64,000 nt of DNA from Paraprevotella sp. (GTDB lineage Bacteria > Bacteroidota > Bacteroidia > Bacteroidales > Bacteroidaceae): positions 1 to 64,000 of the forward strand of contig JAGBCQ010000001.1 in assembly GCA_017937925.1 (NCBI GenBank), read 5' to 3'. The notes under the pieces were generated by a model. It saw only the letters and a list, made by a program, of their open reading frames with translations, was not told the origin of the DNA and searched no databases. The position numbers and the translations under genes were made by a program. Below are positions 9,301 to 61,871 of this stretch, in pieces. Every line of letters begins with the position of its first letter. The first letter of the stretch is position 1.

Positions 9301-12300
9301 ATCCATTGCTGACATTACCGGCATCAGTCCAGCCCGTCCAACCTTCCAAGTCATAATTGTCGAAATTCGGATTTACTATCCACGATGTTACATCTGTGTT
9401 GTCCGCTGTCGGAGTTTCTGGTAAAGAATAATTTTCATCATAAAATTCAGCCATCGCCTCACGTAATTGATAGACTTGCTCCAACCGTTCCTCGTTAGTA
9501 CCGTCTTCAAGAACCGCCTCTGCCTCTGCTTTTGCCGTTGCAAGTTTTCCGTCCGTATCTTCACCTTGCATTAACAATTCGGTAGCCTCAGCTATCGTCT
9601 CAGAGATGAGTACGTAAGCACTTTTATAAACCACTTTTGCATCAGCCAACGAAGCCCAATTGCAAGCATTGCCATCGCCGGCTCGCATACCAAACGAGAG
9701 GACACCATTTGTCACTTCTGCCGAAACGCTATAACTACGTAAGTTCTTAACAACAGGAACAGCTGTCAATGAATCATTAACAAACAAGTTTATCACTCCG
9801 GCACCGGCACCCTTCTGTGCCGCTCCACTCAACGTATAATTTCCCATTGGCATTCCCTTCTTGACCATATAGAACAAGCGTTCGCCTGCCAAGAAATTAC
9901 TACCATTGTAACGTTCTAACATATACTGTCCTTCTGCCGTCCCTCGCTGCACTCCGGAACCATCAATCTCAAAGACACGCATATTACCACCTACAACATC
10001 GGTACGCCAACGAAGGTTAACATCCATCCAACTGCCACTTGAAGGCTTGTCAATCGCAGCATCCTGAAAATCAGGTGTAATATCCAAAGCCACCGTACTA
10101 TTCTCAATCAAAGAGAACCATGCAGTTTGCATCGCCTGCCAAGCTGCGATAATATCTTTCGCCGTTTCAGCGTCCTCAAAAGAATTGATAGCCTGTGCCA
10201 ACCCATCACTTCCGTCAGGATAGGTTTCGATATATGCTTTATATCGCTCATAACAAGATTTATAAAACGTATAATGTTTTTGAATAACTTGTGCTTCGCC
10301 CAAAACACTCTGCAACTCAAGAAGTGCTGATACGCTCACATCGCTTTGCTTGCCAAGCGTACTTAATTGGTCGCACAGCGAGGTTGGAACCATATTCTCA
10401 GTATAGGTAAGCGCCTCTGTCCGCATACTATCCAAATCGTGTTCTAAAGCATCCGTTCCATTATATAATAATGTAAAACAGTCCATTGCCACCCAATTCA
10501 ATCCTGATTCCGAATAAGGCTCATTTTGGTTCGCTATATTTTTCAAACCGATATTTGCTTTCCCGTCATTACCTACATAAAAATCAACCGTGAAGTTTTG
10601 TGCAACATTGTTGGGGGAAGAGACTGCTTCGTTCACACCATTGGCATAAAGATAGACATGTTGAACATATCCCTTTGCTTTATCATCCCCTTCGGCAAAG
10701 GTCTGTTGGGTAGCAATAACAGACGCACTCAATGTGTATTTTCCGGCTGCAAGTCCGGTCAGTTGTTGTCCAATATTAAAAGTTTCCATACCCCAACAGT
10801 CTGTATCATCTTGCGTAGCAACACGCCAACGTTCGATAAACGGCTGAGAGAGTCCCTGCACATTCGAAGTCATTAGTTGGAAACCGCTGACGTCGGCAGT
10901 CCATGCCGAAACATTCTCACATTCGGCATCTGCCAAGCGATAGGAATAATCATTCTCATCGTATATTATATTAAAGGTACGTACCGTCTTAACACCGGAT
11001 TGGTTGGTCAGCGTAAATGTAAGAGTATGGTCTGATTCGTCCGATAGTGTATAAACAATCGTTCCTCCCGTAGCGAGTTGCGCTCCATTCTCATCGGTCC
11101 ACACTTCACTCTGTATGTAATTCCAAGTTGAATATGCCGTCGAAATAGTAACTTTCTTACCTTTACCCATACGAATATCGTACCCTTCAACACTCTGGCC
11201 ATCATAAGTGATATAAGAGTTCAAAGTACCTTCAAGTCCTTCTCCTGTCACAGCAATAGAGAACATTTGAGTACTTTTTACACCGACTGCATTGGTATAG
11301 ACGACTCTATATATGCCGGATTTATTAGCAGTAATTTGACGTTGCTGCCCAGTTGCACCATCTTCCCATTCCCAAGTTCCTGTATTCTCTTCATCTTCCG
11401 GTAACGTTGCAGACAACGTGAGAACCGTACCCGGTTCTATATTACTAATTTCGGCATAGTGACGAGTTGCATTATCTGTTACAATGACCGGTTGCAATAT
11501 GGTCGGAACAGAATCGGCATGAACTTGAGGGTCATAATGCATTAAATCTCCAAAGCCGGTGTGGTCATAACCTCCACTATTATTACCGTAGGAACCACCT
11601 CCGCGTTCTATGCCTATGATATCTTTCATCTTCTGACAATACGGCATATCAAGTCCCATGCGGTTCTTATAATGATTGATAAACAACTGCCAAATAGGAC
11701 GCCACTGTCCTCGACCGGTACCGCTCAACCCTGTCATCCACCAGTTGGTGGTATATGGCAAATCGTCCGAGCCTGTATTATAGGCTGCCACATATTCAGC
11801 GGCTCCAGCCACCATCATTGAGCCGGTCTTGCCCGGAATCAGAGGATTATACAAGTTACAGAACGCATTGTCACCTTGGTTGTAAGCCGTTTGAAGCGCA
11901 TAAGACAACAATCCTAAAGCTGCCATAGAGTGACCTTGGTCACGACCGCTTTCCTGCATCTGACAGAAATAGCCTAAAGGACCACGTTCGTCAGCATGGA
12001 ACCAAGGAATCAATCCCCAACCATAGCCACACAAGCCTTGACCGAAAGCATCCGGATGCAAACTCGTCACACAAACAGATTCATTACCCGGTCCTTCTTT
12101 CAGCCAATACATGCCGTAATTGTACACATCCGGCAGGTCGCAAAATACACCTAATGAGATACAGAATACAACATTTCCCAAACCCCAGTTACTATGGTAG
12201 TGGTACCAATTTTGCTCACGAACGACTGTATCATGACGTCTTTCCAAGAAGTCTTGTGACAATACGAACCACACATCTATCATGTATTGTTTAAAGAGTT

Positions 12301-52130: not shown

Positions 52131-52155
52131 TTACACCTTATTATATAATATATAC
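52131..52155. repeat. AT-rich direct repeat flanking the DUF3467 gene, left copy
   Basis: TTACACCTTATTATATAATA and the following TATA recur at 52555-52578 with a single mismatch over 24 bases, in the same orientation. The two copies bracket the DUF3467 gene. Function unknown. Confidence 0.5.
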
Positions 52156-52218: not shown

Positions 52219-52542
52219 TTACGCGTCTCCCTTTGCCATTCCAAAAGGAGCAATCGTCCTTGGCTCGCCGGTATGCATATCAATCGGTCCGAACGTCTGT
52301 TCATAACGGTTGATATTATCCTGCAAAGCATACAGCAAGCGTTTGGCATGCTCGGGCGCCATAACAATGCGCGATTTAACGGGTGCTTTTGGCAAGCCGG
52401 GCAACACACACGCAAAGTCCAATATCACCTCGGATGTCGAATGGGCGATCATCGCCAGGTTTGCATACACACCTTGTGCCACTTCCGGAGTTATCTCTAC
52501 TTGCAACATTCCTCCTTGTTGCTCATTGTTGTCTTGTTTCAT
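52219..52542 (-). CDS. DUF3467 domain protein
   Basis: This 107-residue protein has the DUF3467 pattern: LQVEITPEVAQGVYANLAMIAHSTSEVILDFACVLPG followed by VKSRIVMAPEHAKRLLYALQDNINRYEQTFG. It has no signal peptide or membrane segment, so it should be cytoplasmic. In Bacteroidetes the gene commonly sits between rpoC and rpsL, as here, but its function is not known; the position suggests a link with transcription or translation. In this genome it is separated from rpoC by an inserted surface-protein locus on the other strand. Confidence 0.8.
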   Translation of the reverse strand: MKQDNNEQQGGMLQVEITPEVAQGVYANLAMIAHSTSEVILDFACVLPGLPKAPVKSRIVMAPEHAKRLLYALQDNINRYEQTFGPIDMHTGEPRTIAPFGMAKGDA

Positions 52543-52554
52543 AATCGTATAGTT

Positions 52555-52578
52555 TTACACCTTATTATATTATATATA
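52555..52578. repeat. AT-rich direct repeat flanking the DUF3467 gene, right copy
   Basis: This is the second copy of the 24-base repeat at 52131-52154, with one mismatch. It ends 13 bases before the DUF3467 start on its upstream side, so it would lie in that gene's 5' leader. Confidence 0.5.
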
Positions 52579-52600
52579 TGAGAATCTTTGAACTACCGTA

Positions 52601-52608
52601 CAAAAATA
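52601..52608 (-). promoter_or_regulatory. Candidate -7 box of the DUF3467 gene
   Basis: On the minus strand TATTTTTG (52608-52601) matches TAnnTTTG about 60 bases before the ATG at 52542. I see no TTTG at the expected -33 distance, so the call is weak. Confidence 0.35.
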
Positions 52609-52692
52609 CACATTTATAACGACCAATAAAGCATAATACCAAAGAAAGACTGATTTTGATTCAAGTTTTTTATACTGCAACACCATCGGTTG

Positions 52693-52718
52693 CTCTCTAT
52701 AAAAGAGACAAACCAACC
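52693..52718 (+). repeat. Left inverted repeat of a putative invertible promoter
   Basis: CTCTCTATAAAAGAGAC (52693-52709) is exactly reverse-complemented at 52904-52920. The match extends inward through 52718 with 7 of 9 further bases. The core is itself an imperfect palindrome (TCTCT-ATAAA-AGAGA), as expected for a site-specific recombinase site. Confidence 0.8.
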
Positions 52719-52837
52719 GCACACAATCCTTTATTTATGCCGAGTTTTCAATCCATGATAGGTTTTTCGTAGAACAGACAACCGCAATCCAACAAACAGT
52801 TCGCAATACAAAATCGTCATTTTTTTCTTTCTTTTAT

Positions 52838-52868
52838 TTGCAGTTACCTACTATTCAAGTATATTTGC
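52838..52868 (+). promoter_or_regulatory. Promoter of the giant surface-protein gene
   Basis: TTTG (52838-52841), a 19-base spacer and TATATTTG (52861-52868) match TTTG-N19-TAnnTTTG exactly. The expected start near 52875 is followed at once by a hairpin AACCACC/GGTGGTT (52878-52884 with 52896-52902) and by the right inverted repeat, so the leader is about 108 bases and structured. Confidence 0.75.
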
Positions 52869-52894
52869 AAAAATATAACCACCTTAACTTAGTG

Positions 52895-52920
52895 GGTGGT
52901 TCGTCTCTTTTATAGAGAGA
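52895..52920 (-). repeat. Right inverted repeat of a putative invertible promoter
   Basis: GTCTCTTTTATAGAGAG (52904-52920) is the exact reverse complement of 52693-52709, with the match continuing inward to 52895. It lies in the 5' leader of the surface-protein message, 62 bases before the ATG. Confidence 0.8.
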
Positions 52921-52982
52921 ATACTAATAAATACAACAGAGAAACTAAAATTATATTAACCTATTTCTAAATTTTAAACCAA

Positions 52983-55900
52983 ATGAAAAGAAGACTACGA
53001 AACCTCCTGATGGCAGGAATAGCCATCTTGGGAAGCTGGAGTTACACTTCGGCTTACACTGTGGACGACTTGACATCCGCAGGTTGGACAAAAGTTGACA
53101 ACATTGAGAATGTCGATGTTTCTAAAAATTTATTCGTTTTTGTTGACGCAGGTTCATCCAACTATCTTATGACAGACCCTGGGGATGGAGGAAGAGCTAT
53201 TTACAAAAATATAGCAGACCCTGCTACTAACAAACATTATGCATGGTTACTAGAAGGATCTGGAGACACATATGCTATCAAAGGTTCAGACAGCCGTTTT
53301 TATTTCAATACAGGTGGCGCTGGGTGGGACAACTACATGAGTGTTACTAATGATAATGCAAATTATATCTTCTCATTAGCTGACGGTAAATATTCGCTTA
53401 AACGAACAACTGCAGAAGAATTCCTTGGTCCATGGAATGACAATGGCGCTGTTGCCAATGACGGAGAAGGTATTGCAGCGAATAAAGGTGCAGCAAAAGC
53501 TCCTGGCTTTTATATATATTGTATATCCAAAGAGGATTATTGGCCCGCACCTACAGAAGAAGTAAAAACATTACTGAACACTGCAACACCGGAAAGCCCA
53601 GTTGACATAACACACCTTTTAACCAATCCTAATTTTTCTGAAGATGTAACTATAGGCTGGAATCGTAAAGCCCCATGTAATTGGTATAACAATACGGGTG
53701 TAGACGGAACTCGTTTTGTTGAATTTTGTGATTGGAATGCAGGTTCTTGGAACGGTTCAATATCGCAAACCATATACGGAATCCCTAACGGAAGTTACAG
53801 AGTGAAAGCCGTAGGACAAGCCGCAAATTCAAATGTTACTGTTACCCTTACGGCAAATGGAGTATCTAATAATCTAAATTGCATAGGTGATACAGGTGGC
53901 AACGTTGCTATAGGCGGTGAAGTTGTAGCAGCTGGTACTGGACATGCTGGTTGGCAGTATATGGAAGTAGAATGTAACGTAACAGATGGTACATTGAATA
54001 TTAACGGAAACGCGACCTCTAACTCACAATATCGTTGGGCTAATTTTGACTATGTTACAGTTACGTGCCTTCAAGTTTTTGATTTATCCTCATATATCAC
54101 ATTGTATGAAGAAGCTTTATCCAATGCACAAAATATGCTTACAACATCGGAACAGTTGGAAAGTTCTGTCAAAACAGCTCTTAATACAACCATCAATACT
54201 TATAATAGCGTAGACCAAACCAGTCAAGCTGCATTGGAAGAAGCAATAGCAGCAATCAATACTGCAATCAACAACTGCAACACATCTATTTCAGCATACG
54301 CATCAGCAAAAGCATATCTTGACAAGATGGGGGCAGTTCTTGATAATACCAACGTATATACTCAAGACGCATACGATGCTAAATATGGAACATGGTTGGC
54401 AGAATACAACGCAGGTACACTTGCTACTTCTACTGCTGCGACATTGAGCGCAGACATGGCTTATAGCACAGGATGGCACTCAGCAAACAATATTGATGAA
54501 GTTTTACTATCTACTTGGACTATAGGTGGTGAAAAAGCTAATAACTATGACAAGGCATTATACATCAACACCTGGTCTCTTGAAGGTAATACAGATGGCT
54601 CAGAATTTTTTACTCCTTTCTTTGAGTATTGGGTTGGCGATGGCGATGTTCTTGCTGGAAATACCATCCAATCTACCATTACAGGCTTAGAGCCCAATGC
54701 CACATATTCTTTCACTATCCGTGCACGCGTACGCCAAACCAACAACCAAACGAAGATTGCCAATGGTATTACAATGCAAGTGGGCGAAGGCACTCCAGTG
54801 GATATCAGTTCCGGTACTATCTTCGGTATGGGTCCGTTCTTCATCGGTAACTTCTCAGCAGTGGGTGAAACCGACGCTGAAGGAACATTGACCGCTACCA
54901 TCACAGTGGCTGCGAATAGCAACATCTCTTGGTTATCATTCTACAATGCTAAATATACAGAGGGCGAAGACCTTTCTGCTTATATCGCTGACTATGAGTT
55001 CGCTTTGGCAAACGCTACCGCAGCTTTGAGCAAAGGTATGGATCCTAACTTACGTTCGGCTCTTCAAAGCACTGTTGATACATACTCTTCAGTGGATACT
55101 ACCAATAAGACAGCCTTGATTACCGCCAAGGAAGCATTGGACGCAGCACTTACAGATGAAATCCGCGCAAGCGTTGCCGAATTGGAAGGCTCAAGCATCA
55201 ACGGATGGAGTAGAACAGGTAATAGTGCTAATTTTGAGGTGAACACTTGGTCCGGAGAAGGCGCCACTGACGGTTCTAACATGACTACACCGTTCTTACA
55301 AAATTGGCAAGGAAAAGAAAACGGTGCCTTAGGTGACGCAGTCATGACTTATACTTTAACCGACCAGGCTCAAGGTTACTATAGAGTTTCTGCCTTGATT
55401 CGTTCCTTGAACGAGAATGGTGGAGCGGCTCCGGCTGGTACATTCATCTTTGCGAATACAGCCATTGAGCGTGCTTACAATGGTACAGCATGTACCAACG
55501 GTGTGTATGACGAACCGGAAGTTTATGGTTATGTAGGCGCAGACGGTAACTTGTCTATCGGTGTCAAGGTGATTCGCGCTAACGTAAACTGGGTTTCATT
55601 CAAGAACTTCAAGGTGGAATATCTCGGCACAGAATTGACTAACGATATGGTTAGCAACTTGACAGAAGAAGCTCCTTCGTTCACATACAACACTACAGCA
55701 CAAGCAACCCTTGACGCAGCAGTAAGTGCATTGAGCGGAACTCAAAACGCTGACAACTACGTAGCAGCAGGTTCTGCTATTGAAACAGCTTATAGAACCG
55801 GTGATGTTGATTTGACTGAATTGAATACTGCCATCGCAAATGCTGAAGCAGCAGCAAGCAGTAAGGTTCTTGGATTCGCTACAGGCGAGTACGCTCCTTA

Positions 55901-57140
55901 CAATAACGTTGAGGTTATTACTGCCCTTGCAACAGCTAAAACTTTCAGCCCGACTACTGTCTTTGATCAAACTTTAGTTGTAGAAATGACTAACACATTG
56001 AACGCAGCTTCATGGAACGAGAACACAGAAGAAGTGAACGCTATTTATGACGGTTCGTTTGAATACGCATACTCAACCGACGGTAATGTTAAACCTTTCG
56101 GATGGCATGCTACTAATGATCGCGACAATGCAACCAACGTTCGTTATATGTGGAATGTTGCTTCTAACGCCGGTTTGAACGCTACTTCTACCGGTAAGGC
56201 ATTGTTCACTAAGTACGAAGCATACTATGGCCAAGAAACCGGTTACACCATGCCATTGAAGGCAAACACCATCTATGAGTTGACATTCGTTTACGGTGGT
56301 TGGGACGATTGTAAAAAGGACGGTTATGTAACCGTGACCGCTCCTAACGATGATAACATTGAAGTAACAGTAAGCAGATTGCCGCTTGACGCTACTAACG
56401 GACACCAAGACGCAAACGCATGGAAGAGCTACAAGGCAAGATTCCAAACTAGCGACGCCGGCAATTACGTTCTCGGATTGCGCAAGGATAATGACGGTAC
56501 TACAGTGCAAAGCCAATACGTTTACGGCGATATGAAGTTGTTCACTGCTAAGGCTGAGGACATCAACTTTACATTCAAAGCGGACTATGGAACTTTGATT
56601 CTTCCATTCGACGCAGAATTGCAAGAGGGCATGGAGGCATACACATGTGACGGAAAAGAGGAAAATGAATTGACATTAACTCTGACTCCGGCCGAAAGTT
56701 TCGTTGCCAACACTCCGTACATCGTTAAGAAGACTGGTGCTACTACCGATTACACATTCAACGGTATCGCTTATAGCACTGCAACTACTTACACAGACGG
56801 TTTGCTTACTGGTACACTCGTTGACATGACAGCTCCTGCAGGTTCATTGGTATTGCAGAACCAACCAAGCGGTTTAGGTTTCTATCAAGTAGATACTAAT
56901 GATATCACGGTGAAAGCAAACCGTGTTTACGTGACCGAAGAAATGGCAGGCGTAAACGTACGCGCATTGATTCTTCCGGGCAATGAAACCGGCATCAACA
57001 GCGTAGTAGCTGAGGACAGCATCGTTGACGTTTACACTATCGGTGGTGTTAAGGTGAAAGAAGGCGTTAAGGCTTCTGAGGCTCTTAATGGCTTGGCAAA
57101 AGGCTTCTACATCGTAGGTGGCAAAAAAGTAATGAAGTAA
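52983..57140 (+). CDS. Giant secreted surface protein with carbohydrate-binding-like modules and T9SS-type tail
   Basis: This 1385-residue protein has a signal peptide (about 1-24, ending SYTSA). No catalytic domain is recognised. At least four beta-sandwich modules of galactose-binding/CBM type are visible (for example NPNFSEDVTIGW...YRWANFDYVTVTC near 215-360, and WSRTGNSANFEVNTWSGEGATDG...WVSFKNFKVEYLG near 735-880). They are separated by helical Ala/Thr-rich linkers that resemble FIVAR repeats. The C-terminal ~200 residues hold the shared GTLILPFD / NTPYIVKK module and end in VYTIGGVKVKEGV...GLAKGFYIVGGKK. It is probably a cell-surface adhesin or glycan-binding protein. It sits on the opposite strand inside the conserved rpoC-DUF3467 gap, is driven by a putative invertible promoter, and is followed after 25 bases by a small peptide gene. 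The first ~1.7 kb looks more AT-rich than the rest. Confidence 0.75.
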   Translation: MKRRLRNLLMAGIAILGSWSYTSAYTVDDLTSAGWTKVDNIENVDVSKNLFVFVDAGSSNYLMTDPGDGGRAIYKNIADPATNKHYAWLLEGSGDTYAIKGSDSRFYFNTGGAGWDNYMSVTNDNANYIFSLADGKYSLKRTTAEEFLGPWNDNGAVANDGEGIAANKGAAKAPGFYIYCISKEDYWPAPTEEVKTLLNTATPESPVDITHLLTNPNFSEDVTIGWNRKAPCNWYNNTGVDGTRFVEFCDWNAGSWNGSISQTIYGIPNGSYRVKAVGQAANSNVTVTLTANGVSNNLNCIGDTGGNVAIGGEVVAAGTGHAGWQYMEVECNVTDGTLNINGNATSNSQYRWANFDYVTVTCLQVFDLSSYITLYEEALSNAQNMLTTSEQLESSVKTALNTTINTYNSVDQTSQAALEEAIAAINTAINNCNTSISAYASAKAYLDKMGAVLDNTNVYTQDAYDAKYGTWLAEYNAGTLATSTAATLSADMAYSTGWHSANNIDEVLLSTWTIGGEKANNYDKALYINTWSLEGNTDGSEFFTPFFEYWVGDGDVLAGNTIQSTITGLEPNATYSFTIRARVRQTNNQTKIANGITMQVGEGTPVDISSGTIFGMGPFFIGNFSAVGETDAEGTLTATITVAANSNISWLSFYNAKYTEGEDLSAYIADYEFALANATAALSKGMDPNLRSALQSTVDTYSSVDTTNKTALITAKEALDAALTDEIRASVAELEGSSINGWSRTGNSANFEVNTWSGEGATDGSNMTTPFLQNWQGKENGALGDAVMTYTLTDQAQGYYRVSALIRSLNENGGAAPAGTFIFANTAIERAYNGTACTNGVYDEPEVYGYVGADGNLSIGVKVIRANVNWVSFKNFKVEYLGTELTNDMVSNLTEEAPSFTYNTTAQATLDAAVSALSGTQNADNYVAAGSAIETAYRTGDVDLTELNTAIANAEAAASSKVLGFATGEYAPYNNVEVITALATAKTFSPTTVFDQTLVVEMTNTLNAASWNENTEEVNAIYDGSFEYAYSTDGNVKPFGWHATNDRDNATNVRYMWNVASNAGLNATSTGKALFTKYEAYYGQETGYTMPLKANTIYELTFVYGGWDDCKKDGYVTVTAPNDDNIEVTVSRLPLDATNGHQDANAWKSYKARFQTSDAGNYVLGLRKDNDGTTVQSQYVYGDMKLFTAKAEDINFTFKADYGTLILPFDAELQEGMEAYTCDGKEENELTLTLTPAESFVANTPYIVKKTGATTDYTFNGIAYSTATTYTDGLLTGTLVDMTAPAGSLVLQNQPSGLGFYQVDTNDITVKANRVYVTEEMAGVNVRALILPGNETGINSVVAEDSIVDVYTIGGVKVKEGVKASEALNGLAKGFYIVGGKKVMK

Positions 57141-57165
57141 TAACGACAAAAACGAAACAAACAAT

Positions 57166-57324
57166 ATGAAAAGGATTCAATATATTCGCCCGATGGTGAA
57201 AGAATGCCACGTAGAAGCACAAGGCATGATGGCATTGTCCAGATTGGAAGGAAGTGCCAATAAGGAATATGAAGTTTTGGTAAACGAAGACGCGTTTACC
57301 GACATTTGGGGTAACGAGTTGTAA
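57166..57324 (+). CDS. Small peptide (52 aa), MMA-motif family
   Basis: The ATG at 57166 opens a 52-codon frame ending in TAA at 57324, 25 bases after the giant surface-protein gene and before a strong terminator, so it is co-transcribed with it. It begins MKRIQYIRPM, has MMALS at 21-25, an acidic stretch (NEDAFTD) and ends IWGNEL. The first 25 residues align without gaps to the 56-residue peptide at 6209-6379, sharing nine positions (K2, Y6, P9, V11, V16, M21, M22, A23, S25), and both end in an acidic, Trp-containing tail. There is no signal peptide. Function unknown; linkage to T9SS-type proteins is the main clue. Confidence 0.75.
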   Translation: MKRIQYIRPMVKECHVEAQGMMALSRLEGSANKEYEVLVNEDAFTDIWGNEL

Positions 57325-57345
57325 TTCAACCGACATACTAATCTT

Positions 57346-57385
57346 AAAGGTCCGTTCATCCGCATCGATGAACGGACCTTTTTTT
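57346..57385 (+). terminator. Terminator after the surface-protein/peptide operon
   Basis: AAAGGTCCGTTCATC (57346-57360) pairs with GATGAACGGACCTTT (57367-57381), followed by a T run. It begins 21 bases after the peptide stop. Confidence 0.9.
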
Positions 57386-57405
57386 ACCCCACTGAGGTCG
57401 CTGAA

Positions 57406-57470
57406 ATGCCGGACGTCCGTCGTCACGACGACAGACGTCTTGCGTTTGAACGGCGGACGTCCGACATTTT
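57406..57470 (+). repeat. GGACGTCC hairpin repeat, copy B
   Basis: It contains CCGGACGTCCGTCGTC, then GACGACAGACGTCTTGCG, then CGGCGGACGTCCG. The order matches copy A at 247-314, including the shared word GACGTCTTGCGTTT. GACGTCCGTCGTC and GACGACAGACGTC can form a long hairpin. It lies between the terminators of two convergent transcripts. Confidence 0.65.
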
Positions 57471-57517
57471 GAAGAGAAAAGCGTCCTATTTTGACTAGTT
57501 CCGGCAAAACAAAAAAA

Positions 57518-57553
57518 GACGAGGCGCGCTCCTTTTTTGAAGCGCGCCTCGTC
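57518..57553 (-). terminator. Terminator of the rpoBC transcript
   Basis: GACGAGGCGCGCT (57518-57530) pairs exactly with AGCGCGCCTCGTC (57541-57553). On the minus strand a run of seven T residues follows. It lies 29 bases beyond the rpoC stop. Confidence 0.92.
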
Positions 57554-57581
57554 CTGTTATAATCGAATATTACTATTCTAT

Positions 57582-60500
57582 TTATGCTTCTTCATCATCC
57601 TCCAAGTCAAGGATAGACTTGCGGTTAGCCATCAGGCGGTCATATTCCTCCTTGCTACCCACAACAATCTTTCCGAACTCACGCAGACCGGTTCCGGCAG
57701 GAATCAAGTGTCCACAGATAACGTTCTCCTTCATACCTTCCAACTTGTCGGACTTGCCATTGATGGCTGCGTCGTTCAATACCTTTGTGGTCTCTTGGAA
57801 AGATGCAGCAGACATGAAGCTTGAAGTCTGCAATGCAGCACGTGTGATACCTTGCAAAATCTGGATTGATGTAGCAGGCATAGCATCGCGAACTTGCACA
57901 GGGCGCAAGTCTTTACGTTTCAACGTAGAGTTCTCGTCGCGCAACTTACGTGCTGTCACAATCATACCGGCTTGCATATTCTCAGAGTCACCGGCGTCAA
58001 TTACCACCTTCTTGCCCCAGATGCGATCGTTCTCTTCCGCGAAGTCAAGCTTATCTACAATCTGTTGTTCCAAGAAACGTGTATCACCCGGCTCGTCTAT
58101 TTGCACCTTACGCATCATCTGACGTACGATTACCTCAAAGTGCTTGTCGTTAATCTTCACACCTTGCATACGATAAACGTCTTGAATCTCATTCACGATA
58201 TATTCTTGAACGGCTGTCGGGCCCTTAATAGCCAAGATGTCTGCAGGAGTCGTAGCTCCATCGGACAACGGCGTTCCGGCACGAACGTAATCGCTCTCTT
58301 GAACAAGGATTTGTTTTGACAATGGAACCAAGTATTTCTTAACCTCACCCAGCTTTGAAGTTACGGTGATTTCACGATTACCACGTTTCAACTTGCCTAA
58401 ACTTACCTCACCATCGATTTCTGATACGACAGAAGGGTTAGACGGGTTACGAGCCTCAAACAACTCAGTCACACGAGGAAGACCTCCGGTGATATCGCCA
58501 GCCTTACCAACTGCACGAGGAATCTTCACCAAGATGTCACCGGCTTTCACTGTTTGGTTATCCTCTACTGATAAGTGACCACCGATTGGGAAGTTATATG
58601 TTCGTATCAACTCACCATTCTCGTCAAGGATATGAGCTGAAGGCACCTTACCCTTATCTTTAGATTCGATGATAATCATCTCGCGCAAACCTGTTGTCTC
58701 ATCCGATTCAACACGATATGTCACACCTTCGATAACATCCTCGAATTGGATTCTACCCGGTGTTTCTGTTACGATGATAGCATTGAACGGATCCCATTTA
58801 GCAATCATCTCGCCCTTCTTCACCGTTGCACCTTCGTTCACATACAATGTTGAACCATAAGGAACGTTCTGAGTAAGAAGCACAATGCCTGTATTTACAT
58901 CAACGAAACGAACTTCGGCCAAACGACCTACAACCATCTTGGCTGCATTACCTGTCTCGTCAGCAATATCTACTGTACGCAACTCTTCGAACTCAACCTT
59001 AGAATCATATTTTGCAATGATAGTAGCATTTGCTGCTGCATTCGAAGCCACACCACCGGCGTGGAACGTACGCAATGTCAACTGAGTACCCGGCTCACCA
59101 ATGGACTGAGCTGCGATGACACCCACTGCCTCACCTTTTTGTACCATGCGGCTTGTTGCCAAGTTACGTCCGTAACACTTCATACATACGCCCTTCTTGC
59201 TTTCACAAGTCAATACGGAACGAATTTCAACGCTTTCAATTGGTGAATTCTCAATAGCTTGAGCCTTGTCTTCAGTAATTTCCTCACCGGCAGCTACTAT
59301 CAATTCTCCTGTTGAAGGATTGATAACATCGTGAACGGACACACGTCCCAAGATACGTTCTGAAAGTGATGAAATCACCTCATCGCCATTCTTAAGCGCT
59401 GTGCAGACCAAACCACGCAATGTACCGCAGTCTTCTTCTGTAATAATGACATCGTGAGAAACGTCCACCAAACGACGAGTCAAATAACCGGCATCTGCGG
59501 TTTTCAATGCGGTATCGGCCAAACCCTTACGAGCACCGTGAGTAGAGATAAAGTACTCCAACACGCTCATACCTTCCTTAAAGTTAGAAAGGATCGGATT
59601 CTCAATAATTTGCGCGCTCTCAGCTCCTGCCTTTTGAGGTTTAGCCATCAAACCACGCATACCAGACAACTGACTGATCTGACCTGCAGAACCACGGGCA
59701 CCGGAATCCAACATCATGTAAACGGCATTGAAACCTTGGTCGGCCTCTTTCATGGTCTTCAACAAGATGTCTGACAAGTTGTTATTGATGTGTGTCCATG
59801 TGTCGATAACCTGATTGTAACGTTCATTGTCGGTAATGAATCCCATACCATAGTCGTTTGCTATACGCTCAACTTCCTCATTACCCTTGCGCACCAATTC
59901 TTCCTTCTCTTCAGGAATAATGATATCGCCCAAGTTGAATGACAAACCACCAACATAAGCCATACGGTAACCTAAGTTCTTGATTCCGTCGAGGAACTCA
60001 CAAGCACGAGCCACACCTACTGACTTAATAACATCGGTAATAATGCCACGCAATGTTTTCTTAGATATAACATCATTGAAGAATCCGATTTCCTCAGGAA
60101 TGATTTCATTTACAATCACTCGACCTACTGAAGTTTCAATCATCTTCTCTACCAACTCACCATTCTCATTCAAGTCCTTAACAATAACCTTTATAGGCGC
60201 ATGGATATCTACACGCTTCTCGTTGTATGCAATGATTGCTTCTTCAGGACCGTAGAATGTCAAACCTTCGCCCTTTGAACCGGGACGTAATTTTGTAATA
60301 TAGTACAGACCCAACACCATATCCTGAGAAGGCACTGTGATAGGCGCTCCATTGGCAGGATTCAAGATGTTGTGTGATTGAAGCATTAAAATTTGCGCTT
60401 CAAGGATAGCCTCGTTGCTCAAAGGCAAGTGAACAGCCATTTGGTCACCATCGAAGTCGGCGTTGAACGCAGTACATGCCAATGGGTGCAATTGAATAGC

Positions 60501-61871
60501 CTTACCTTCAATCATCTTAGGTTGGAAAGCTTGGATACCCAAACGGTGCAAAGTCGGCGCACGGTTCAACAATACCGGGTGTCCTTTCATTACATGCTCC
60601 AGGATATCCCATATTACTGGGTCTTTACGATCTACAATCTTTTTCGCTGATTTAACGGTCTTAACGATACCGCGCTCTATCAACTTACGAATGATAAACG
60701 GCTTGTACAATTCTGCTGCCATTAACTTTGGCAAACCGCACTCGCCCATCTTCAATTCCGGACCTACGACAATTACCGAACGTGCTGAATAATCGACACG
60801 CTTTCCTAACAAGTTCTGACGGAAACGTCCTTGCTTACCCTTTAACGAGTCAGAAAGTGACTTCAAAGGACGGTTGGCATCGGTCTTTACCGCACTTGAT
60901 TTACGAGAGTTGTCGAACAAACTGTCAACAGCCTCTTGCAACATACGCTTCTCGTTACGGAGAATCACTTCCGGAGCTTTGATTTCAATCAATCTCTTCA
61001 AACGATTGTTACGGATAATAACGCGACGATACAAATCGTTCAAATCAGAAGTAGCGAAACGACCACCATCCAGAGGTACTAACGGACGAAGTTCTGGTGG
61101 AATAACCGGAAGTATCTTCATAATCATCCATTCCGGTTTGTTGCGATTGCGACTGCTACGGAATGACTCCACAACTTGCAAACGTTTCAATGAATCGTTC
61201 TTACGTTGCTGAGCAGTATCAGCATTGGCACTGTCACGCAACTCGTATGATAACTTGTCAAGGTCCAAACGCACCAACATATCATAGATAGCTTCCGCAC
61301 CCATCTTAGCAATAAACTTGTTAGGATCGGAATCGTCTAGATATTGGTTCTCTCTTGGCAACTTGTCCAAGAAATCCAAATATTCGTCTTCTGTCAGCAA
61401 ATCATTCTCTGCGACACCTTCTTCAGCCAAAACACCCGGTTGAATAACGATGTAACGCTCGTAATAAATTACTGAATCCAACTTCTTAGTAGGTAATCCT
61501 AACAAATAACCTATTTTATTAGGTAAGGAACGGAAATACCAAATGTGTGCAACCGGCACTACCAACTGGATATGTCCGGAACGCTCACGACGTACTTTCT
61601 TTTCTGTTACCTCAACACCGCAACGGTCACAAACGATACCCTTATAACGGATTCGTTTGTATTTACCGCAATGGCACTCATAATCCTTTGTAGGACCGAA
61701 GATGCGCTCACAGAACAAACCGTCACGTTCCGGCTTGTATGTACGATAATTTATGGTCTCAGGTTTCAAAACCTCGCCAAACGAATTTTCCAAGATTTCC
61801 TCAGGTGAGGCCAATCCTATGGTAATCTTCGTAAAATTACTCTTTACTTTAGATTCTTTTCTAAAAGCCAT
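57582..61871 (-). CDS. rpoC: RNA polymerase beta' subunit
   Basis: This 1429-residue subunit begins [27 protein letters not shown]. The N-terminal zinc site is seen as C66, C68, C81 and C84 ([20 protein letters not shown]). The catalytic magnesium motif [12 protein letters not shown] lies near residue 470. The trigger-loop and bridge-helix region and the second zinc site ([17 protein letters not shown]) are intact. It follows rpoB by 27 bases. It ends in an acidic tail (LDLEDDEEA). Nothing unusual apart from the foreign locus placed after it. Confidence 0.98.

Follow-up and report, generated by a model that had tools for sequence, protein, structure and literature searches.

The 64,000-nt stretch of Paraprevotella sp. 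DNA analysed here (contig JAGBCQ010000001.1 of GenBank assembly GCA_017937925.1, positions 1 to 64,000; hereafter the window) raises the question of whether the short interval before a gene for a large surface protein is a promoter that can be turned around, and, if so, by which enzyme. Our preferred reading, to which we give a probability of roughly 0.88, is that 52693-52919 is a phase-variable invertible promoter in which a 195-nt segment is flipped by a Tsr-like tyrosine recombinase, switching the surface protein ON and OFF. The features concerned are as follows.

52219..52542, - strand: neighbouring gene across the switch, DUF3467 (PF11950); a -7 box belonging to it lies beyond the repeat, at 52601-52608 (- strand)
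52693..52718, + strand: inverted repeat, left arm (core 52694-52708, TCTCT-ATAAA-AGAGA)
52709..52903, no strand: the 195 nt enclosed by the core sites, proposed to invert
52837..52867, + strand: promoter of Bacteroidota type, oriented ON, exact match to TTTG-N19-TAnnTTTG, 31/31 nt the same in the sister species (G003)
52894..52919, - strand: inverted repeat, right arm (core 52904-52918, TCTCT-ATAAA-AGAGA as read on the - strand)
52983..57140, + strand: controlled gene, 1385-aa secreted or surface protein with an N-terminal signal-like sequence (by eye) and a C-terminal KxxxK
57582-61871, - strand: rpoC, named from its sequence
G000:C6:148544-149749, elsewhere in the same genome: free-standing Tsr-like tyrosine recombinase, 402 aa, PF13102 and PF00589

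The inverted repeat, its promoter and the gene behind it

The initial annotation had described a 17-mer at 52693-52709 as exactly reverse-complemented at 52904-52920. The repeat (CTCTCTATAAAAGAGAC) is indeed exact, with its right copy one base further left, at 52903-52919, and the match extends, as had also been noted, over 26-nt arms (52693-52718 and 52894-52919, 175 nt apart) that agree at 24 of 26 positions (92%). Both arms have the form TCTCT-N5-AGAGA with an identical N5, and their core sites lie 210 bp apart, centre to centre. Between them, TTTGCAGTTACCTACTATTCAAGTATATTTG at 52837-52867 on the + strand is an exact TTTG-N19-TAnnTTTG promoter aimed, as first proposed, at the gene whose ATG is at 52983. 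By our computation inversion would carry this promoter to 52745-52775 on the - strand with its -7 box at 52745-52752, which agrees with the earlier estimate of about 52752-52745. A promoter between inverted repeats of 26 nt falls within the range of 10-40 nt given for invertons in the excerpted text of PMC11892184.

Perfect inverted repeats of at least 17 nt with arms 20-1000 nt apart numbered four in 219 kb of the window genome, whereas 20 Markov versions of that sequence yielded one in total, an expectation of about 0.05 for each version. Some other identities were considered and set aside: two Rfam matches fell far below their gathering scores and were taken as chance, a miniature transposon was rejected on seeing no flanking target duplication (by eye) and no other copy of the 17-mer, and the 23-nt promoter core had no exact match in viral contigs.

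The gene at 52983-57140 sits between rpoC and DUF3467-rpsL. Its 1385-aa product matched no Pfam model at cut-off and nothing in NCBIfam, and its C-terminal region is common to other inverton-controlled large proteins of the genus. Checked for type IX sorting, it has the KxxxK end and matched none of the Pfam or NCBIfam type IX sorting models, and its predicted structure, modelled in two parts with weak mean pLDDT values of 58.8 and 45.3, was too weak for comparison. The junction between rpoC and DUF3467 (window 52543-57581) differs from genome to genome within the genus: of 16 others (G003 left out), 3 have rpoC directly against DUF3467, and the remaining 13 have no rpoC end in the upstream stretch examined (at most 1.5 kb) and carry other open frames there. 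Two short sequences in this neighbourhood recur elsewhere. An A/T-rich element (TACACCTTATTATAT..) lies at window 52131-52154 and 52553-52578, on contig C23 of the window genome and in three other genomes of the genus, and is perhaps a shared leader motif; the stretch directly before the start codon (AAAATTATATTAACCTATTTCTAA, window 52950-52982) is closely matched by a sequence a short way ahead of an ATG in a genome from another genus (L060).

A full-length orthologue of the 1385-aa gene (85% identical) was present in only one of the 18 genus genomes, G003, a metagenome-assembled genome from yak cecum (Paraprevotella sp. RGIG9451). Its left arm is on contig C139 and its right arm on C268, both of which end inside the segment; we drew nothing from these ends since the assembly has about 380 contigs. 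When the arms were aligned without gaps, both read CTCTCTATAAAAGAGA.. in the window and both CTCTCTCTATAAGAGA.. in G003, so that the two arms have changed together, and position 21 holds a further change common to both. All 31 nt of the promoter are the same in the two species. Chance is untenable as an origin of the repeat, since the same arrangement with changed letters is present in this second species. The locus is in the ON orientation in both assemblies, and no flipped assembly was seen. A DNA search with the window segment matched 9 of 399 family genomes, at length only in the window's own genome and in G003; the other seven matches were stretches of about 30-50 nt that we mostly read as chance.

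A class of TCTCT-N5-AGAGA sites and the evidence that its segments invert

We first met the TCTCT-N5-AGAGA form at short inverted repeats beside relatives of the Tsr-like recombinase of this genome. In a pattern search, pairs of such sites spaced 176-206 nt apart occurred in 30 of 399 family genomes, belonging to 11 of 30 genera, against one genome for the reversed pattern, and pairs spaced 146-175 nt apart occurred in 12 of the 18 genus genomes (reversed-pattern control, 0). The genus holds 58 distinct pairs in 13 of its 18 genomes, a total reached from 19 and 42 matches after setting aside one pairing between unlike sites and two matches that repeat an element already counted. The N5 was identical within the pair in all 22 pairings from 19 loci (two G003 contigs also looked at are without one) and in 36 of 38 pairings from the 30 family-search loci; of the two exceptions, one couples an arm with a third, close-by site (L119) and the other takes its arms from adjacent elements (L135). 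Across 114 genus arms, which come from 57 pairings selected for matching arms with the window included, the spacer mostly starts with T and ends with A. The window arms are atypical in this set: their first spacer base is A, found otherwise only at L234, where 104 of the 114 arms have T, and their AGAGA is followed by C, which no other arm has. A TAnnTTTG box lies in 53 of the 57 segments (4 are without one) compared with 19 of 112 flanks of equal length.

Several members have additional sites. An extra copy stands just beside one arm at L158, L159, L162, L121, L123, L132, L134 and L138, and L135 (G189:C3:166982-167592) has two invertible segments almost back to back near one recombinase. At L101:2588-2859 (G009:C1) a different palindrome, TTTTGCTTAAGCAAAA, occurs in several copies next to a distantly homologous recombinase and may belong to another inversion system with multiple sites. 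15-mers of the site form were absent from the literature text searched, which does not extend to logos in figures or to supplements.

Direct comparison of two related genomes, G001 and G017 (14 and 10 loci, flank by flank), yielded seven orthologous segments matched in both flanks and inside. Four of the seven are inverted between collinear flanks (L145/L160, L146/L162, L205/L158 and L206/L207) and three are collinear (L199/L200, L201/L202 and L203/L204); L147/L161 and L208/L159 share only 25-28 nt inside and were left out of this count. Both orientations are therefore seen at the level of the site class, and inversion at such sites has taken place since the G001 and G017 lineages parted. One of the flipped pairs, L145/L160, carries a homologue of the window surface-protein gene.

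In the 19 loci that gave the 22 pairings, the segments stand next to genes of several kinds. UpxY-type capsule antiterminators adjoin L147, L155 and L161 (passing the NCBIfam UpxY cut-off) and, judged by eye from a similar start, L146, L153, L156 and L162. Relatives of the window surface protein adjoin L145, L149, L150, L151, L154 and L160, to which L152 was assigned through a start near-identical to that of L151. The gene at L148 encodes a 738-aa protein without family match and that at L159 a 1364-aa hybrid two-component regulator; no such gene lies near L157 or L158. Among the surface-protein loci, eight in number, the position of the promoter is nearly constant, its start being 119-129 nt from the arm at its back in segments of 186-196 nt (window, 129 nt and 195 nt), and three are ON (window, L154 and L160) and five OFF (L145 and L149-L152).

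The window genome itself has two further pairs, at C12 ~11212-11402 (L215:3213-3403) and C17:1695-1883 (L216), in both of which one arm departs from the pattern by a single base; the two pairs have the arm CTCTAAGTAAGAGAGCAAC in common. The C12 promoter points away from a 119-aa gene, lipoprotein-like by eye (OFF), and the C17 promoter points toward a 158-aa gene (ON). These came from 244 kb searched at one mismatch, where four candidate pairs were found by distance, three of them (C12, C17 and the window) with matching spacers; the rest of the genome was searched with the exact pattern.

The site form, matched spacers, flipped orthologues and adjoining recombinases of the class together give good support to the proposal of the initial annotation that an invertible promoter serves the large surface protein. 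We weighed four other explanations against it. The segment might be a formerly invertible one, now locked with its gene fixed ON because the cognate enzyme is lost or inactive there; both known copies are ON, no recombinase adjoins them and the window arms depart from the genus consensus. We regard this as unlikely, given that the C12 and C17 pairs of the same genome stand in opposite states and that the arms are matched within each species despite having changed between species, which speaks for continuing constraint or recombination.

About equally doubtful is a two-gene switch, in which the flipped promoter would drive DUF3467 and the rpsL operon behind it. Once inverted, the promoter would face left with the start of DUF3467 about 200 nt away, and the -7 box of DUF3467 itself (TATTTTTG, 52601-52608, kept in G003) has no -33 box at the usual spacing in the window. 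Against this, TAnnTTTG boxes stand upstream of DUF3467 (by eye) in 15 of 16 other genus genomes, none of which has this switch there, so DUF3467 does not need it. The alternation between two genes suggested by the initial annotation is thus unsupported, DUF3467 having its own box outside the repeat; it is a possible second target of the flipped promoter, although not a needed one.

We think it very unlikely that the arms are two identical operators through which a DNA-binding regulator represses or activates by looping, on DNA that never inverts. Each arm is near-palindromic and the core sites are 210 bp apart, as operators might be, but the N5 is free between loci and identical in nearly every pair, which fits a strand-exchange region and not an operator; moreover, orthologous class segments were found flipped, and many sites of the same form are adjoined by recombinases. 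Least probable is a role of the arms as RNA structure, the mRNA hairpin that the initial annotation had held against its own proposal, for although the right arm falls within the predicted 5' leader, where it could fold into a small hairpin, the left arm is outside the transcript, being upstream of the promoter, and in neither species did the leader fold better than its shuffled versions (z -0.76 and -0.23).

A candidate recombinase acting in trans

Under the invertible-promoter reading, a Tsr-like tyrosine recombinase would bind the two TCTCT-N5-AGAGA sites, which would have to share their central bases, and would flip the 195-nt segment between the cores. The promoter would point at the surface-protein gene in the assembled state (ON) and away from it in the opposite state (OFF), and flipping would in this way set expression of the protein. 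Our candidate for this enzyme, which would work in trans, is the orphan recombinase at G000:C6:148544-149749.

The initial annotation had left the choice between an Mpi-type serine and a Tsr-type tyrosine recombinase. We found no match to the serine recombinase model PF00239 in the window genome, a 78.6%-complete assembly, whereas 10 of 14 control genomes matched; the Mpi type is accordingly disfavoured and the Tsr type likely. It had also suggested a search for other copies of the repeat and an adjoining invertase. No recombinase gene lies beside the window repeat, and the 2.06-Mb assembly has no other occurrence of the 17-mer at up to 2 mismatches and so none beside an invertase, which makes the window site an orphan. 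PF00589 had five matches in the genome: two XerC/D-like proteins, two that we read as integrases beside excisionase-like genes, and the free-standing recombinase on C6. An inverted repeat that follows a tRNA beside the latter was considered as a site and rejected, as its arms lack the site form.

A tree was built from 30 of the 51 matches to the Tsr-like recombinase; in it the C6 protein belongs to a clade (support 95/100) with one member in each of 10 genus genomes, the window and G003 proteins being sisters (95/96). All 10 members keep the R, R, H and Y positions that we take to be the catalytic residues. None of the 10 has a site pair beside it, even at 3 mismatches (flanks of at most 1.5 kb, shorter at contig ends), and among the other 20 homologues in the tree a flanking pair was found for 7 at 1 mismatch and for 13 at 3. 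Recombinases homologous to L045 lie inside 14 of the 30 family-search loci (19 of 38 pairings). Orphan pairs, defined as having no recombinase homologue within 3 kb, are associated with the clade: they occur in 9 of 10 genomes with it vs 3 of 8 without (Fisher p 0.043; with the split G003 pair included, 10 of 10 vs 3 of 8 and p 0.0065) and number 47 vs 4 (Mann-Whitney p 0.0024), statistics that ignore genome kinship and assembly quality and are a lead, not proof.

The C6 recombinase may therefore be the enzyme that acts on the window site, and an enzyme unseen in the 78.6%-complete assembly is also possible. We give about even odds to a broader proposal, that the orphan clade is a genome-wide master invertase of Paraprevotella that works only in trans on TCTCT-N5-AGAGA sites and shuffles UpxY capsule promoters and large surface proteins together. 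With a site form and a candidate enzyme named, switching surface proteins and capsules become predictable from sequence, and a common controller of the two kinds of switch becomes testable. Were the master-invertase reading true, the enzyme would have the same role as Mpi, an unrelated serine enzyme, in B. fragilis.

Comparison with known inversion systems

Surface proteins of Paraprevotella as a gut commensal affect the host, one case being trypsin degradation via type IX cargo (PMC9477747, in excerpt). Promoter inversion by serine and tyrosine enzymes, both local and distant, is established in Bacteroides according to the excerpted texts of PMC4747536, PMC12632263 and PMC3090145. The nearest parallel is Tsr19 (BF2766) of Bacteroides fragilis, a single tyrosine recombinase that flips a local and a distant promoter (excerpts of PMC4747536 and PMC3090145). 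The system proposed here likewise has a tyrosine recombinase acting at a distance on promoter segments of surface structures, and repeats are duplicated beside some segments (here L158, L159 and L162) as in the Tsr19 region; unlike Tsr19, the proposed enzyme is without any local segment. The comparison is one of enzyme class, reach and arrangement. Mpi of B. fragilis is a global serine recombinase of capsule promoters (excerpts of PMC4747536 and PMC12632263). The likeness to its regulon lies in one proposed enzyme for many capsule and surface promoters genome-wide, with UpxY genes downstream in relatives here, but the enzyme class differs, no serine recombinase having been found in the window genome.

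The available portions of PMC8748976 describe invertible promoters of gut Bacteroidales, Paraprevotella xylaniphila among them, that have an invertase next to them and in many cases upxY downstream. These share with the window switch the bacterial order, the consensus TTTG / TANNTTTGY and the UpxY link; they stand beside their own invertase on integrative elements, whereas the window switch is an orphan in a ribosomal-gene neighbourhood. PMC11892184, as far as its excerpted text goes, reports many inverton repeat motifs (hCom2, PhaseFinder groups), and our promoter segments are grouped by repeat letters in the same way. The orphan master enzyme is possibly a new element. The window switch and the enzyme that probably controls it from a distance are newly recognised members of a well-known type.
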